Assembly (NCBI RefSeq): GCF_024198255.1
Contig: NZ_JAJVKW010000005.1
Location: 434,001 to 498,000, forward strand
Reading direction: 5' to 3'
Source of the DNA: Myxococcus guangdongensis
GTDB taxonomy: Bacteria > Myxococcota > Myxococcia > Myxococcales > Myxococcaceae
DNA length: 64,000 nt
Part shown: piece by piece, positions 40,616 through 45,240 of the stretch
Numbering within the stretch: position 1 is the first letter of the stretch
Layout: every line of letters starts with the position of its first letter
The notes under the pieces: generated by a model
Seen by the model: only the letters and a program-made list of their open reading frames with translations
What the model was told of the DNA's origin: nothing
The model's database searches: none
Translations under genes and position numbers: made by a program

Positions 40616-41587
40616 ATGGATCTCCCGTTCGAGACCGGTGAGGGCGACGGTGGGGAGGGGGGAACGCTCGCCTCGACGGTGTTGGTGGTGGACGACGAGC
40701 CGGTCGTGCTCGACATCTGCGCCCGCTTGTTGGAGCGCGAGTCGGACCTCGTGGTGCTGGTGGCGGCGAGCGCGGAGGAGGCGCTGCCGATACTGGGTGA
40801 GCAGCGCATCGACGTGCTGGTGACGGACAAGAACCTGCCCGGCATGGGCGGGGTGGAGCTCGTCGCGCAGGCGCGGACGCTGCAGCCCACGTTGGAGGCG
40901 CTGATGATTACGGCCTACGCGAGCAGCGAGTCCGTCATCGCGGCCTTCGCGGCGGGGGCGAGCGACTACATCCTCAAGCCCTTCGACGACCTGCGGGTGC
41001 TGCGCGCCAAGGTGCGCGCGGCGCTGGAGCGGCGCACGTCCGGGACACGCGTTCGCGAGCAGGCGCGGGAGGTGGCCCGCGAGGCCGCCGCGTTGTTGGC
41101 CGCGGGGCAGGACGCGCCGGAGCCCGCGCACGTGGCGCTGGAGGAGGAGCTCCGGGCCTACGAGGAGTCGTCACGTCAGGTCCAGGCGGGCCGCGTGGCG
41201 GTGGTGGGCAGCGTCGAGGCGTTGGAGTCGCTGCGCGAGTCCGGTTTCGAGGTGCGCGAGCTGCCGCCGTACGCGCCGGAGCTCGAGGAAGTGGACGTGG
41301 TGGTGGTGGAGACGGGAGATCCGCAGTGGCGCACGTTGGCGGAGCGCCTCCAGAGCCGGCCCCCGGATGTGCTGCTGCTGGCCAGTCCCGAGGCGGACCT
41401 GGGCGACCTGCTGGAGGCCATCACCCTGCGCATGGACCTGGTGGGCTTCGGGACCACGCAGGGCGCGAGCGTCCTTCCGGAGAAGGTGCGGATGCTGCTG
41501 CTTCGCCGCGGTGTCCAGCGCGCGCAGGACCGACTGGCCGCCGCGCTCACCACGTTCCGCCAGAGCATCCTCGCGCCGTCGGCTTGA
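40616..41587 (+). CDS. Response regulator with a second, receiver-like C-terminal domain
   Basis: 323 residues from ATG 40616. A receiver (about 20-140) has 'LVVDDEPVVLDICARLLE', acceptor Asp in 'VLVTDKNLPGMGG', Thr/Ala in 'LMITAYAS' and Lys in 'YILKPFDD'. A helical linker (about 140-190) leads to a second alpha-beta region ('VAVVGSVEALESLRESGFEV', 'VDVVVVETGDPQWRTLAERL', 'PDVLLLASPEADLGDLLEAI') that looks like a degenerate receiver lacking the acidic pocket. No DNA-binding or enzyme domain. It may relay a signal by protein contact. Confidence 0.85.
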   Translation: MDLPFETGEGDGGEGGTLASTVLVVDDEPVVLDICARLLERESDLVVLVAASAEEALPILGEQRIDVLVTDKNLPGMGGVELVAQARTLQPTLEALMITAYASSESVIAAFAAGASDYILKPFDDLRVLRAKVRAALERRTSGTRVREQAREVAREAAALLAAGQDAPEPAHVALEEELRAYEESSRQVQAGRVAVVGSVEALESLRESGFEVRELPPYAPELEEVDVVVVETGDPQWRTLAERLQSRPPDVLLLASPEADLGDLLEAITLRMDLVGFGTTQGASVLPEKVRMLLLRRGVQRAQDRLAAALTTFRQSILAPSA

Positions 41588-41605
41588 GCCGGGGGCGGGG
41601 CCGCT

Positions 41606-42289
41606 TCAGGTCCCGTCGCCGTCGAGCTGGCGCGCGAGGTCGAGCTGGAGCGCCAGCAACTCCGTCATCGGAACAGGCCGGCGGGACACGCGGGTGAGGT
41701 CCTTGCCCTCCGCAGTCCAGAGGGGAGGGTGGAGGGAGAAGCCCTGGTCCGGTGAGAGCTTCGAGACGTCCTCGCTCCAGCCGGCCGCGCGGTACCCACC
41801 GTAGAACCCGGCGAGGTCTCCACCGAGGAAGAACGCGAGCAGGTCCGAGTAGCCACGTTCCAGGTCTTCCCAGCGGAGCGTGTCGGGCGCGAAGTAGAAC
41901 GCGCCGCCGCGTCCTTCGCCGAGCGCCCCGCCATCGAGCGCGAAGAAGCCGCCGACGGCGTCATGGGCCACGAGCAACATCCCTCGCGTCGAGGCCACCG
42001 CCGGATGCGGGCCCAGCGCATTCCAGGTGGCCAGGCTGCCGCGCATGCGCGGATCCCCGCCGCCGCCCAGGACTCGGAGCCAACCTCCGTCGATGAGCAG
42101 GCCTCCTGTTTCGTAGGCCACCGCGCCCAGGGGAGAGCGCGTCGTCACCTGAAGCTGGTGGAGCACTTCTCCAGCGGTGGCTTCGTCTCGGGGCAGCACC
42201 TCGGCCAGGTTGCTCGCCGAGCCCAACCGCTCCCGCACCCACGGCCACGCGGGGTCCGTGGTTTCGAGCAAAGCCTCGAGCGACCGCAT
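41606..42289 (-). CDS. DUF2625 family protein
   Basis: 227 residues. 'MRSLEALLETTDPAWPWVRERL', 'TTRSPLGAVAYETGGLLIDGGWLRVLGGG', 'GFFALDGGALGEGRGGAFYFAPDTLRWEDL' (each in part) match DUF2625, a cytoplasmic family of unknown function related to the SMI1/KNR4 immunity-like fold by general look. The start at 42289 is close to the tRNA terminator. SMI1-like relatives sometimes act as toxin-immunity proteins, but no toxin lies nearby. Confidence 0.75.
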   Translation of the reverse strand: MRSLEALLETTDPAWPWVRERLGSASNLAEVLPRDEATAGEVLHQLQVTTRSPLGAVAYETGGLLIDGGWLRVLGGGGDPRMRGSLATWNALGPHPAVASTRGMLLVAHDAVGGFFALDGGALGEGRGGAFYFAPDTLRWEDLERGYSDLLAFFLGGDLAGFYGGYRAAGWSEDVSKLSPDQGFSLHPPLWTAEGKDLTRVSRRPVPMTELLALQLDLARQLDGDGT

Positions 42290-42304
42290 GCGCCACCACG
42301 CTCC

Positions 42305-42345
42305 GGAAAAACAAAACGCCCGCCTTCTTTTCAGAAGGCGGGCGT
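42305..42345 (-). terminator. Intrinsic terminator of the tRNA genes
   Basis: Perfect 13-bp stem (42316-42328 and 42333-42345, ACGCCCGCCTTCT with its complement) with a four-base loop, followed on the minus strand by TTTGTTTTT. The most classical rho-independent terminator in the window. It ends the tRNA-Glu transcript. Confidence 0.92.
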
Positions 42346-42350
42346 CCGAG

Positions 42351-42422
42351 TGACCCTGCCGGGATTCGAACCCGAGTTTGTGCCGTGAGAGGGCACCGTC
42401 CTAACCGCTAGACGACAGGGCC
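42351..42422 (-). tRNA. tRNA-Glu (anticodon CUC)
   Basis: 72 nt on the minus strand. Acceptor stem GGCCCTG/CAGGGTC with one G-T pair and discriminator A; D arm TCGTCTAGCGGTTAGGA as usual for tRNA-Glu; anticodon stem GTGCC/GGCAC enclosing CTCTCAC, anticodon CTC; T arm with GGTTCGAATCC. CCA is not encoded. It lies directly before the terminator and about 110 bp after tRNA-Gln. Confidence 0.95.
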
Positions 42423-42458
42423 GACATTTCGCTGCAACCACCGTGTTTCTGCTGCTGC

Positions 42459-42487
42459 TTCCTACATCCTGCTTCAGCTCTCGTCAA
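42459..42487 (-). promoter_or_regulatory. Promoter of tRNA-Glu
   Basis: Minus strand: TTGACG (42482-42487), 17-bp spacer, TAGGAA (42459-42464), ending 37 bases before the tRNA. Exact consensus spacing. Confidence 0.65.
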
Positions 42488-42533
42488 CCACCTTGATTCG
42501 AGCTTTTTTTGCTGCGGACTGCGGTGCTGCGAG

Positions 42534-42604
42534 CTGGGGAACTAGGATTCGAACCTAGATAAGCAGAGTCAGAGTCTGCTGTCCTGCCGTTAGACGATTC
42601 CCCA
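42534..42604 (-). tRNA. tRNA-Gln (anticodon CUG)
   Basis: 71 nt on the minus strand. Acceptor TGGGGAA/TTCCCCA, discriminator G, D arm with TCTAACGGCAGGA, anticodon stem GCAGA/TCTGC around CTCTGAC (anticodon CTG), T arm CTAGGTTCGAATCCTAG. CCA is not encoded. The first pair T-A is typical of tRNA-Gln identity. Confidence 0.95.
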
Positions 42605-42620
42605 ATCACTGCGGCTGCCT

Positions 42621-42649
42621 CTACTACCAACACCGCCCATCGACTGCAA
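42621..42649 (-). promoter_or_regulatory. Promoter of tRNA-Gln
   Basis: Minus strand: TTGCAG (42644-42649), 17-bp spacer, TAGTAG (42621-42626), ending 17 bases before the tRNA. Exact spacing; -10 like that of tRNA-Glu. Confidence 0.6.
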
Positions 42650-42680
42650 CAACTTCGGTGGGCGTTTCCTGCGGACTGCT

Positions 42681-43067
42681 CTACTTCTTCTTCCCTGACT
42701 TCGGCTCCGGCTTCTTCGCCGGCTTGACCGCCTGCTGCGTCGGGACGATGTAGATGCGAACTTCCTCGTTCGCCTCGTAAATATTCAGCCCCGCGAAGTT
42801 CTTCCCCGAGGGGTTGGTGATGTGAACCGCCTTCACGCCCGGCTGGTTGACGATCTGCCTCCGAGGATAACTGCTCGTCGAGTAGACCGAGCGGTAGTAA
42901 TCCAACGTCGCCTCGAAATCTTTCGGCGCCCGGTACCGATTCTCCCCCACCTTCTGGGAGCCGTCCGGGAGCTGGGCGCCACTGACCACCTCGGCGCTCG
43001 CCACCACCGCCCAGAGCGCACACATCAACGCGCCGAGCGGGCGCGCCTTATAAAAACGCTGTCTCAT
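42681..43067 (-). CDS. Small secreted protein of unknown function
   Basis: 128 residues if started at ATG 43067, giving a good signal peptide (MRQRFYKARPLGALMCALWAVVASA, in parts, cleaved after ASA). The mature part has 'RYRAPKDFEATLDYYRSVYS' and 'HITNPSGKNFAGLNIYEANEEVRIYIVP' and a Lys-rich tail (KPAKKPEPKSGKKK). It could be a periplasmic alpha-beta protein; no family known to me. A near-consensus promoter overlaps this start; if it is used, translation must begin at ATG 43025, giving a 114-residue form without a charged N-terminus. The start is therefore unresolved. Between gltX and tRNA-Gln. Confidence 0.7.
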   Translation of the reverse strand: MRQRFYKARPLGALMCALWAVVASAEVVSGAQLPDGSQKVGENRYRAPKDFEATLDYYRSVYSTSSYPRRQIVNQPGVKAVHITNPSGKNFAGLNIYEANEEVRIYIVPTQQAVKPAKKPEPKSGKKK

Positions 43068-43075
43068 GGTGTCAA
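43047..43075 (-). promoter_or_regulatory. Near-consensus sigma-70 promoter
   Basis: Minus strand: TTGACA (43070-43075), 17-bp spacer, TATAAG (43047-43052). Transcription would start near 43040. It lies just after the gltX terminator and overlaps the ATG at 43065-43067. It may drive the small secreted protein and possibly the tRNAs. Confidence 0.75.
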
Positions 43076-43104
43076 GCGCTCGCATCATGGTTCGCGAAGA
43101 TAGG

Positions 43105-43136
43105 GGCCGAAGCGACGGACGTCCACCGCTTCGGCC
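43105..43136 (-). terminator. gltX terminator hairpin
   Basis: Perfect 10-bp arms GGCCGAAGCG / CGCTTCGGCC with a 12-base loop, nine bases after the gltX stop. No strong U tract on the minus strand. Confidence 0.7.
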
Positions 43137-43144
43137 GTGAGAAG

Positions 43145-44584
43145 TCACGCGCCGCGCGCCAGGGCGGCGTCGATGCGCCGCAGGGCCTCGTCACGACCCG
43201 CGAGCAGCAGCGTCTCTCCGATGCCCGGGCTCGTCGTGTTGCCCGTGATGGCCACCCGCACGGGCTGTGCCACCTTGCCCATGCCCACGCTGGAGGACTC
43301 GCTGACGGACTTCACCACCCCGTCCAGCGCCTCCACCGTCCACTCCGGCAGCGCGGAGATTCCCTCGCGCACCTTGCGCAGCAGCCCCAGCGAATCCCCC
43401 GTCAGGTGCTTGGCCGCGGCCTTCTCGTCCAGCGTGACGCCGGAGCGGAAGTAGAGCGAGGCCGTGGTGGCCATCTCCTCCAGCGTGCGGGAGCGCTCCT
43501 TGAGCGCGTGCACCAGCGGCACCAGGCGCGAGTCGCCCTTCACCTGGAAGCCCTTGGCCTCGAGGAAGGGCACCAGCCGCTCCGCGACGGTGGCCTCCGG
43601 CAGCTCCTTCATCCACTGCTGGTTGAGCCACAGGAGCTTCTCCGGGTTCCACACGCCGGAGGTGGTGCCGACGCCGGAGAAGTCGAACCACTCCTTCATC
43701 TGCGCGCGGCTGATGACCTCGTCATTGCCGTGGCTCCAGCCCAGCCGGATGACGAAGTTGTTGAGCGCCTCCGGCATGATGCCCGTGCGCTTGTGCAGCA
43801 TCACGTCCGCCTCGGGGTGCTTGCGCTTGGAGAGCTTCTCGCGGTCCGGGCCCAGGATGAGCGGCAGGTGCGCGAACTCGGGCGGCTTCCAGCCCAGCGC
43901 CATGTAGAGCATCAGCTGCGGGAAGGTGGAGTTGACGTGCTCCTGCCCGCGCGCCACCAGGGTGATGTCCATCAGGTGGTCGTCGATGACGCAGCCGAAG
44001 TTGTAGAGAGGGATGCCGTCCGCGCGCAGCATGACCCAGTCGTCCAGGTCCGAGTAGGGCTTGGTGATGACGCCCAGCGCCTTGTCGTCGAACGACACGG
44101 TGCCCTCGGTGGAGGGCATCTTGAAGCGGATGACGGCCTCCTCCTCGCGGCGGCCCTCGGGCGGGCCCTTCAGCTCACGGCACGTGCCCGGGTACTTGTA
44201 GAAGGCGCCGGACTTCTCGGCCGCCTCGCGCTGCGCCTCCAGGTCCTGCCGGGTGCAGTAGCAGCGGTAGGCCTTGCCCTCGGCCAGCAGGCGCTGGGAG
44301 TGCTCGCGATAGGTGTCCAGGCGCTGGGTCTGGAAGTAGGGCGCGTGGGGGCCCTCCTTGCCGGGGCCCTCGTCCCAGTCGATGCCCAGCCACTCGAGGC
44401 CGTCGAGGATGGCCTGCACCGACGCCTCCGTGGAGCGCACGCGGTCCGTGTCCTCCATGCGGACGATGAAGGTGCCGCCGTAGCGGCGGGCCTGCAGGTA
44501 GTTCATCAACGCCGTCCGGGCACCGCCGATGTGGAGGTATCCGGTGGGAGACGGAGCGAAGCGGACGCGAGGGGCGGAAGTCAT
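43145..44584 (-). CDS. gltX: Glutamyl-tRNA synthetase
   Basis: 479 residues, class I synthetase. 'VRFAPSPTGYLHIGGARTALMN' contains the HIGH-type motif; 'DREKLSKRK' is the KMSKS-type loop; 'RMEDTD' is the usual acidic element. C-terminal anticodon-binding helices follow (about 330-479). It charges tRNA-Glu, supplying both translation and, through hemA, heme synthesis. The same strand carries tRNA-Gln and tRNA-Glu downstream. Whether it also misacylates tRNA-Gln (non-discriminating) cannot be decided here. The start at ATG 44584 is close to the divergent 44674 gene. Confidence 0.96.
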   Translation of the reverse strand: MTSAPRVRFAPSPTGYLHIGGARTALMNYLQARRYGGTFIVRMEDTDRVRSTEASVQAILDGLEWLGIDWDEGPGKEGPHAPYFQTQRLDTYREHSQRLLAEGKAYRCYCTRQDLEAQREAAEKSGAFYKYPGTCRELKGPPEGRREEEAVIRFKMPSTEGTVSFDDKALGVITKPYSDLDDWVMLRADGIPLYNFGCVIDDHLMDITLVARGQEHVNSTFPQLMLYMALGWKPPEFAHLPLILGPDREKLSKRKHPEADVMLHKRTGIMPEALNNFVIRLGWSHGNDEVISRAQMKEWFDFSGVGTTSGVWNPEKLLWLNQQWMKELPEATVAERLVPFLEAKGFQVKGDSRLVPLVHALKERSRTLEEMATTASLYFRSGVTLDEKAAAKHLTGDSLGLLRKVREGISALPEWTVEALDGVVKSVSESSSVGMGKVAQPVRVAITGNTTSPGIGETLLLAGRDEALRRIDAALARGA

Positions 44585-44673
44585 ACGGGCGCGCGGATTA
44601 GCAGGGAGGCGGTCGAGGGGTCAACGCGGATGGGCGCGCTGAGGTATGGTGCGCGCCGAGGGAGATACCGCGT

Positions 44674-45240
44674 ATGTCGATTCGTCAGCGATTTCGCTTG
44701 GGAATGTTGACGGTGGCGCTCCTGGGGGGATGGACCGCGTCCGCGACCACGCAGCTTCGCGTGGACGTGACGCAACTCTCCCAGGAAGCGGATGCCGTCG
44801 TTCATGGCGTCGTGCGCCGCGTGGAGAGCCGCTGGAGCGGGGATGGTCGGCGCATCGTCACCGACATCGAGGTCCAGGTGACCGACCCGCTCAAGGGCCA
44901 GCCGGGCAACACGGTGCTCGTCACGCAGCCCGGAGGCGAGGTGGGCGACGTCGGCCAGACGGTGCATGGCCTGGCGACCTTCAAGAAGGACGAGGAGGTG
45001 GTCGTCTTCCTGCAGAAGCGCGGCGCCAGCGCCTTCCGCGTCGCCGGCATGGCCCAGGGCAAGTTCCACGTGCGCCGCGACGAGGTCGGCAAGCCCGCCA
45101 TGGCCGTCCCCGAGCACTCCGACGCGCTCCTGCTGGACCCCGTCACGCGCAAGCCCACGACGGCCACGCAGAAGCCCCAGACGCTGGAGGCGCTGAAGGC
45201 CACCGTGCGCGCGGCGCTGAAGAAGGGGTCCACGCCGTGA
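44674..45240 (+). CDS. Secreted protein of unknown function linked to the metalloproteases
   Basis: 188 residues with a signal peptide (LGMLTVALLGGWTASA, cut near residue 24). The mature part is beta-rich with the block 'EADAVVHGVVRRVESRWSGDGRRIVTDIEVQV' (in part), 'GQPGNTVLVTQPGGEVGDVGQTV' and 'FKKDEEVVVFLQKRG', a pattern seen in small secreted proteins of myxobacteria and planctomycetes, where it often accompanies proteases. Its stop overlaps the next start (TGATG), so it is coupled to the metalloprotease pair. It could be an inhibitor, chaperone or partner of the proteases; this is inference from position. Confidence 0.72.
   Translation: MSIRQRFRLGMLTVALLGGWTASATTQLRVDVTQLSQEADAVVHGVVRRVESRWSGDGRRIVTDIEVQVTDPLKGQPGNTVLVTQPGGEVGDVGQTVHGLATFKKDEEVVVFLQKRGASAFRVAGMAQGKFHVRRDEVGKPAMAVPEHSDALLLDPVTRKPTTATQKPQTLEALKATVRAALKKGSTP

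Follow-up and report, generated by a model that had tools for sequence, protein, structure and literature searches.

The Escherichia coli secG-leuU locus is an mRNA-tRNA operon, in which a small protein gene lies directly upstream of a tRNA gene. Intragenic promoters within open reading frames (ORFs) are found in bacteria, as are leaderless mRNAs, in which the start codon lies at or near the transcription start (+1). The locus described here, from Myxococcus guangdongensis, resembles secG-leuU in that a small protein gene and a tRNA gene appear to form one unit, and it differs in that a second promoter-like element lies within the 5' codons of the protein gene, which could allow tRNA synthesis independently of the full mRNA. 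It differs from intragenic promoters and leaderless mRNAs in general in that both would overlap here at one gene start, in an arrangement conserved through several families. Literature searches on leaderless mRNAs and start sites in Myxococcus, tRNA-mRNA units, intragenic promoters, and discriminators returned no description of the locus, and a search for a myxobacterial map of transcription start sites found none.

Promoters of ribosomal RNA provide a further comparison. The P4rrnD promoter of M. xanthus is described as dependent on sigma-A, with a consensus-matching -35 element and an 18-bp spacer (PMC4182748). The rrn leaders of the genome studied here resemble the element within the small ORF, named P2 below, in that they have the -35 sequence TTGACN, a spacer of 16-18 nt, and a -10 element ending in AAG, mostly followed by the discriminator CCGCGCC. 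However, the rrn promoters form tandem arrays ahead of the rRNA, whereas P2 lies within the codons of a protein gene. Promoters that respond to CarD/CdnL are described for Rhodobacter and other Alphaproteobacteria as lacking the last T of the -10 element, as does P2 (PMC8407463).

The window, a stretch of 64,000 nt (contig NZ_JAJVKW010000005.1 of assembly GCF_024198255.1), comes from a genome of 11.2 Mb with 70% G+C. All features below are on its minus strand, where the observed gene order was gltX, an ORF of 135 amino acids, tRNA-Gln, tRNA-Glu, and a terminator-like hairpin. The upstream neighbor gltX (43145..44584) encodes a glutamate--tRNA ligase, which matched NCBIfam TIGR00464 with 477 bits against a cut-off of 290. 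The small ORF (42681..43088) begins at ATG 43088 and has a putative signal peptide, as judged by eye. The tRNA-Gln (CTG; 42533..42604) was identified by ARAGORN and by Rfam RF00005, and the tRNA-Glu (CTC; 42350..42422) by ARAGORN and Rfam; in the Rfam search over 41500-44700, tRNA was the sole RNA family above the gathering score. An intrinsic-terminator-like site with a 15-bp stem followed by a T-rich tail (42314..42347) is probably the end of the transcription unit. Three such sites were found in 10 kb where 2.8 were expected from shuffles, the other two having 5-bp stems.

The original prediction had placed a near-perfect promoter at the start of this gene, and P2 was present exactly as claimed. 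It reads TTGACA-N17-TATAAG at 43047..43075, with TTGACA at 43075-43070, TATAAG at 43052-43047, and a predicted +1 near 43040 inside the ORF. P2 shares 11 of 12 bases with the sigma-A consensus, with G as the last -10 base, and it has the TTGACA-like -35 element, the spacer of 16-18 nt, and the TATAAT-like -10 element of a sigma-A (sigma-70-type) promoter. The pattern TTGACA-N16-18-TATAAG was found at this one site in the whole genome and its reversed control pattern at none, while the chance expectation from base composition was 0.12 sites per genome and 0.0007 per window. A standard promoter scan did not report P2 because it demands a T at the last -10 position. Within the ORF, P2 spans approximately codons 5-14: its -35 element corresponds to Leu-Asp from Leu-5, and TATAAG is read in frame as Tyr-Lys (codons 13-14).

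Homologues of the ORF were found in 90 of 96 genomes of the family. In a sample of 99 genomes from the order, 87 had one, and 38 of these 87 lay outside the family. The loci of 70 of the 90 family matches were examined, as were all 38 outside the family. Searches of Pfam and NCBIfam with the 135-aa ORF gave no family match. Its predicted structure, with a mean pLDDT of 58, was too poor to interpret, and a comparison with the PDB gave no match at E <= 0.001.

To describe the conservation of P2 among close relatives, a set of 48 Myxococcaceae loci was used, consisting of the 50 closest loci fetched (L001-L030 and L062-L081) minus the more divergent L079 and L080, in which P1-type (see below) and P2 elements were both present. 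The -35 element was TTGACA in all 48 loci, and the -10 element was TATAAG in 46 and TATAAA in two. The seven bases that follow were GCGCGCC in 46 loci and CCGCGCC in two. The spacer had 29 distinct versions, and the residues between the hexamers varied. Leu-5 was encoded by CTT in every locus, a codon used for 2.0% of Leu residues in the gltX genes of these loci. Similarly, the Tyr codon in P2 was TAT in every locus, where TAT accounts for 5.8% of the Tyr codons in gltX and 22% of those in the rest of the ORF. As a control, gltX of the same 48 genomes included 19 invariant Leu columns, none of which was frozen as CTT (one was as CTC), and seven invariant Tyr columns, none of which was frozen as TAT (two were as the common TAC).

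In a wider range of relatives, 69 of 90 loci had TTGAC-N17/18-TATA at the corresponding position, in seven families (f1-f5, f8, and f9). TATA was in frame in all 69, while the reading frame of TTGAC was shared by 58 loci and differed in the other 11. The latter, from two other families, had an 18-nt spacer and, in most cases, a start codon behind the -35 element. Since the -35 hexamer is kept across this change of reading frame, it is a DNA element, and P2 is, on these comparisons, conserved at the DNA level rather than for amino acids alone. Eighteen further loci, fetched after the pattern had been seen, fit it: P2 was present in all eight from f5 and in none of nine from f7, and the single further f9 locus carried the variant TTGACA-N18-TATGAG. 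A P2 -10 element ending in T was found in none of 77 loci. The locus is a case of a near-consensus promoter sequence under selection inside a coding sequence across several families, so that RNA polymerase, and not the ribosome, appears to determine the codon choice at P2.

A second element, P1, which the original prediction had missed, lies at 43097..43125 (TGGACG-N17-TATCTT), with a predicted +1 near 43090, 2 nt before ATG 43088. The pattern TGGACR-N17-TANNNT was found in all 48 loci, at 6-9 nt from the -10 element to an in-frame ATG, a distance at which the leader would be about 0-3 nt long. The last -10 base was T in all 48 loci, also when the pattern did not require it, and many of the intergenic columns around P1 varied. 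Given the position of the predicted +1, the mRNA from P1 is probably leaderless and would start at ATG 43088, an arrangement that would explain why no ribosome site is present. In family f5, a TTGAC-N17-TA element was found upstream in P1's role in 17 of 18 loci, and its last T was mostly absent too (e.g., TACACG).

The presence of P1 contradicts the unstated premise of the original prediction, that P2 is the gene's sole promoter. With P1 placed shortly before ATG 43088, transcription may also begin at a point other than about 43040. A wrong start call, one of three options that the prediction had offered, was rejected on the basis of P1 and the conservation of the start at 43088, and on the comparison of related loci the call of ATG 43088 is right. 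ATG 43067, which had been singled out as giving the best signal peptide and as straddled by P2, does sit in the P2 spacer, but it was found in only 11 of the 48 related loci, while the conserved start is 43088. It had also been stated that transcripts from about 43040 allow only ATG 43025. This is the first in-frame ATG past the +1, but an in-frame TTG is present at 43028. The locus would serve as a model of how the annotation of start codons errs where leaderless starts and intragenic promoters overlap.

The sequence of P2 was compared with other promoter-like sites in the genome. The pattern TTGACN-N16-18-TANAAG was found at 22 sites, against seven for the reversed control pattern, and SCGCGCC directly followed eight of the 22: P2 and seven sites in rRNA leader arrays. 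The rRNA leaders were identified within the window's own assembly through contig overlaps of 127 nt. The arrays lie at the ends of contigs C1, C12, and C27. C1 and C12, which include five of the seven sites, overlap by 127 nt with the contig that holds the 16S, 23S, and 5S rRNA, and the last 127 nt of C27, which includes the other two, recur in the C12 leader. A 16S search in genome G060 returned nothing, where the same search was positive in just nine of 14 control genomes. Within the rRNA arrays, seven of nine sites had the SCGCGCC discriminator and two had others. The rRNA leaders at these contig ends (loci L184, L196, and L201) contained two to four tandem, near-identical promoters of this pattern.

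Other TANAAG sites preceded tRNA-Val, a tRNA-Thr/tuf unit, an rpsF-like ORF, a pnp-like ORF (both ORFs named by eye from their translations), and further genes. The idea that TANAAG is peculiar to stable RNA was dropped, as several such sites precede ordinary protein genes, and the class was therefore narrowed to the subset with the SCGCGCC discriminator. An Rfam search covered 17 of the 22 loci; at one of them, L189, a match to the cobalamin riboswitch begins right where a TTGACG-N17-TAGAAG site ends. For tRNA leaders, 30 loci were fetched from 75 tRNA matches, and 22 were counted as unit leaders. TTGAC-N16-18-TA was found in 10 of these 22, against 0.005 expected in each on a lenient background, the mostly coding window. 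None of 11 -10 elements in the tRNA leaders of this genome ended in T. Sites with a -10 element ending in T were common in the genome too, with TTGACN-N16-18-TAKNNT found at 54 sites against 28 for its control.

The G+C-rich discriminator of stable-RNA promoters was present behind P2 in all 48 loci, and a stable RNA, tRNA-Gln, lies downstream, with which the ORF would be co-transcribed. These features suggest that P2 is probably a stable-RNA promoter of the rRNA type. For M. xanthus, CdnL is reported to stabilize, in vitro, the open complexes that sigma-A RNA polymerase forms at an rRNA promoter (PMC4182748), and CarD-type factors are reported to act at Rhodobacter promoters without the last -10 T, an absence for which they are proposed to compensate (PMC8407463). 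By analogy with both, a dependence of P2 on CdnL is a reasoned guess.

The tRNA genes were examined in relation to P2. A tRNA-Gln was found downstream of the ORF in 69 of the 70 loci examined in the window's own family (f1). Outside f1, all 26 loci with P2 (25 strict and one with the TATGAG variant) had tRNA-Gln 0-35 nt behind the ORF, a gap that leaves little or no room for a tRNA promoter outside the ORF. The 12 loci outside f1 that lack P2 had either a gap of 41-352 nt to tRNA-Gln (nine loci) or no tRNA-Gln in the fetched stretch (three loci), but all 12 belong to one family, f7, and are not independent. The gap between ORF and tRNA was larger in the window's own family than in the P2 loci outside it. 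In the window, a putative promoter proximal to tRNA-Gln, P3 (42621..42649; TTGCAG-N17-TAGTAG), ends 16 nt before the tRNA, and a putative promoter for tRNA-Glu, P4 (42459..42487; TTGACG-N17-TAGGAA), lies between the two tRNA genes. A P3-type TTGNNN-N16-18-TA was found in the gap between ORF and tRNA in 40 of the 48 loci, although this pattern is loose and was counted without a shuffle control, and a P4-type TTGACN-N16-18-TA was found in the Gln-Glu spacer in 39. With the candidates P3 and P4 present, P2 may not be the main source of the tRNAs in f1, and in this genome it may be one of several sources.

In 17 loci of f1, tRNA-Gln lies 4-61 nt behind the ORF and no P2 is present within the ORF. 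Five of these (L087, L088, L091, L094, and L099) had a P2-like promoter directly before the start codon rather than inside the ORF, as if the start codon had moved across a promoter, and several of the others closely follow the upstream gene, as judged by eye.

With a probability of about two in three, P2 is an rRNA-type promoter for tRNA-Gln, together with tRNA-Glu, while P1 makes the mRNA of the protein. The two overlapping promoters of the unit would lie about 50 bp from each other. P1, with its -10 element ending in T, would start a near-leaderless mRNA at ATG 43088 that reads on into tRNA-Gln. P2 would start an RNA near 43040, inside the ORF. This RNA would have no start codon at a conserved position, and tRNA-Gln would be processed from it, as well as tRNA-Glu by read-through. 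Such a locus would be a compact model, in which a protein and tRNAs are possibly made from one unit. That the promoter mainly drives downstream RNA had been another option of the original prediction, and it is the best supported of the three, given the features shared with rRNA and tRNA promoters and the close spacing of tRNA-Gln in the 26 P2 loci outside f1. It is unlikely that P2 is instead the protein gene's own promoter, with translation starting downstream or producing a shorter isoform that lacks the charged N-terminus. An in-frame ATG, GTG, or TTG was found within 16 codons after P2 in 47 of the 48 loci (TTG 43028 and ATG 43025 in the window), which leaves some footing for the remaining option, two isoforms. 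Additionally, in the five f1 loci named above, TTGAC-N17-TA is followed by an in-frame start 1-4 nt behind the predicted +1, so the transcript there would be a nearly leaderless mRNA. However, an ATG was found in that range in only eight of the 48 loci and the positions of GTG and TTG differ, which argues that the RNA from P2 is not like a conserved mRNA for the protein. A start there would also remove the basic n-region, and P1 is a conserved alternative.

The invariance of P2 is open to two further readings. Retention of the hexamers for the amino acids Leu-Asp and Tyr-Lys, with an incidental match to a promoter, would agree with the invariance of these residues in all 48 loci and with the constant frame of TATA, and the common codons GAC and AAG carry little information. 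This reading is nevertheless very improbable, as the Leu and Tyr codons are fixed as the uncommon CTT and TAT, which is not so in the matched gltX columns, and TTGAC is in another frame, with an 18-nt spacer, in 11 loci. It is quite unlikely that P2 does not serve the tRNAs and either feeds a separate small RNA or makes polymerase from P1 pause. In favor of this reading, P2 is invariant in f1 although both tRNA genes have their own candidate promoters there, but tRNA was the only RNA family detected around the locus, and a conserved TTGACA at exact spacing would be unneeded at a pause site. The preferred reading, a stable-RNA promoter behind an mRNA promoter, could also be extended to a switch, in which polymerase at P2 during growth blocks P1 and production of the protein begins once stable-RNA synthesis has ceased. 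This extension is possible but doubtful. The -35 elements of P1 and P2 were 49-54 bp apart in all 48 loci. Two polymerase footprints would need more room than this, which probably prevents simultaneous occupancy of P1 and P2. The last -10 T was present in P1 in 48 of 48 loci and in P2 in none of 77, and in Caulobacter, CdnL is reported to be cleared in starvation (PMC11034885), a condition in which P2 would then be shut off. However, these arguments concern the architecture of the locus, and the contrast in the last T is not universal, as the P1-type element of f5 mostly lacks it. If true, the locus would represent an ancient built-in switch, with the protein made as stable-RNA synthesis controlled by CdnL and ppGpp declines, as it might when starvation sets in.

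Several minor variations were observed among the loci compared. The locus is also carried by M. xanthus (strain AM003, L160), a species worked with in laboratories. In the window, an inverted repeat, GGCCGAAGCG ... CGCTTCGGCC (43136-43105), encloses the -35 element of P1; it is not kept in all relatives and is perhaps the terminator of gltX. In L146 and L149 of family f7, which have neither P1 nor P2, the start of the small ORF coincides with or adjoins the stop codon of a gltX-like gene (assigned by eye), and the ORF is probably read together with that gene. Within the fetched stretch, L028 (genome G015) had four copies of tRNA-Glu behind tRNA-Gln, where none to two were found elsewhere among the loci compared.
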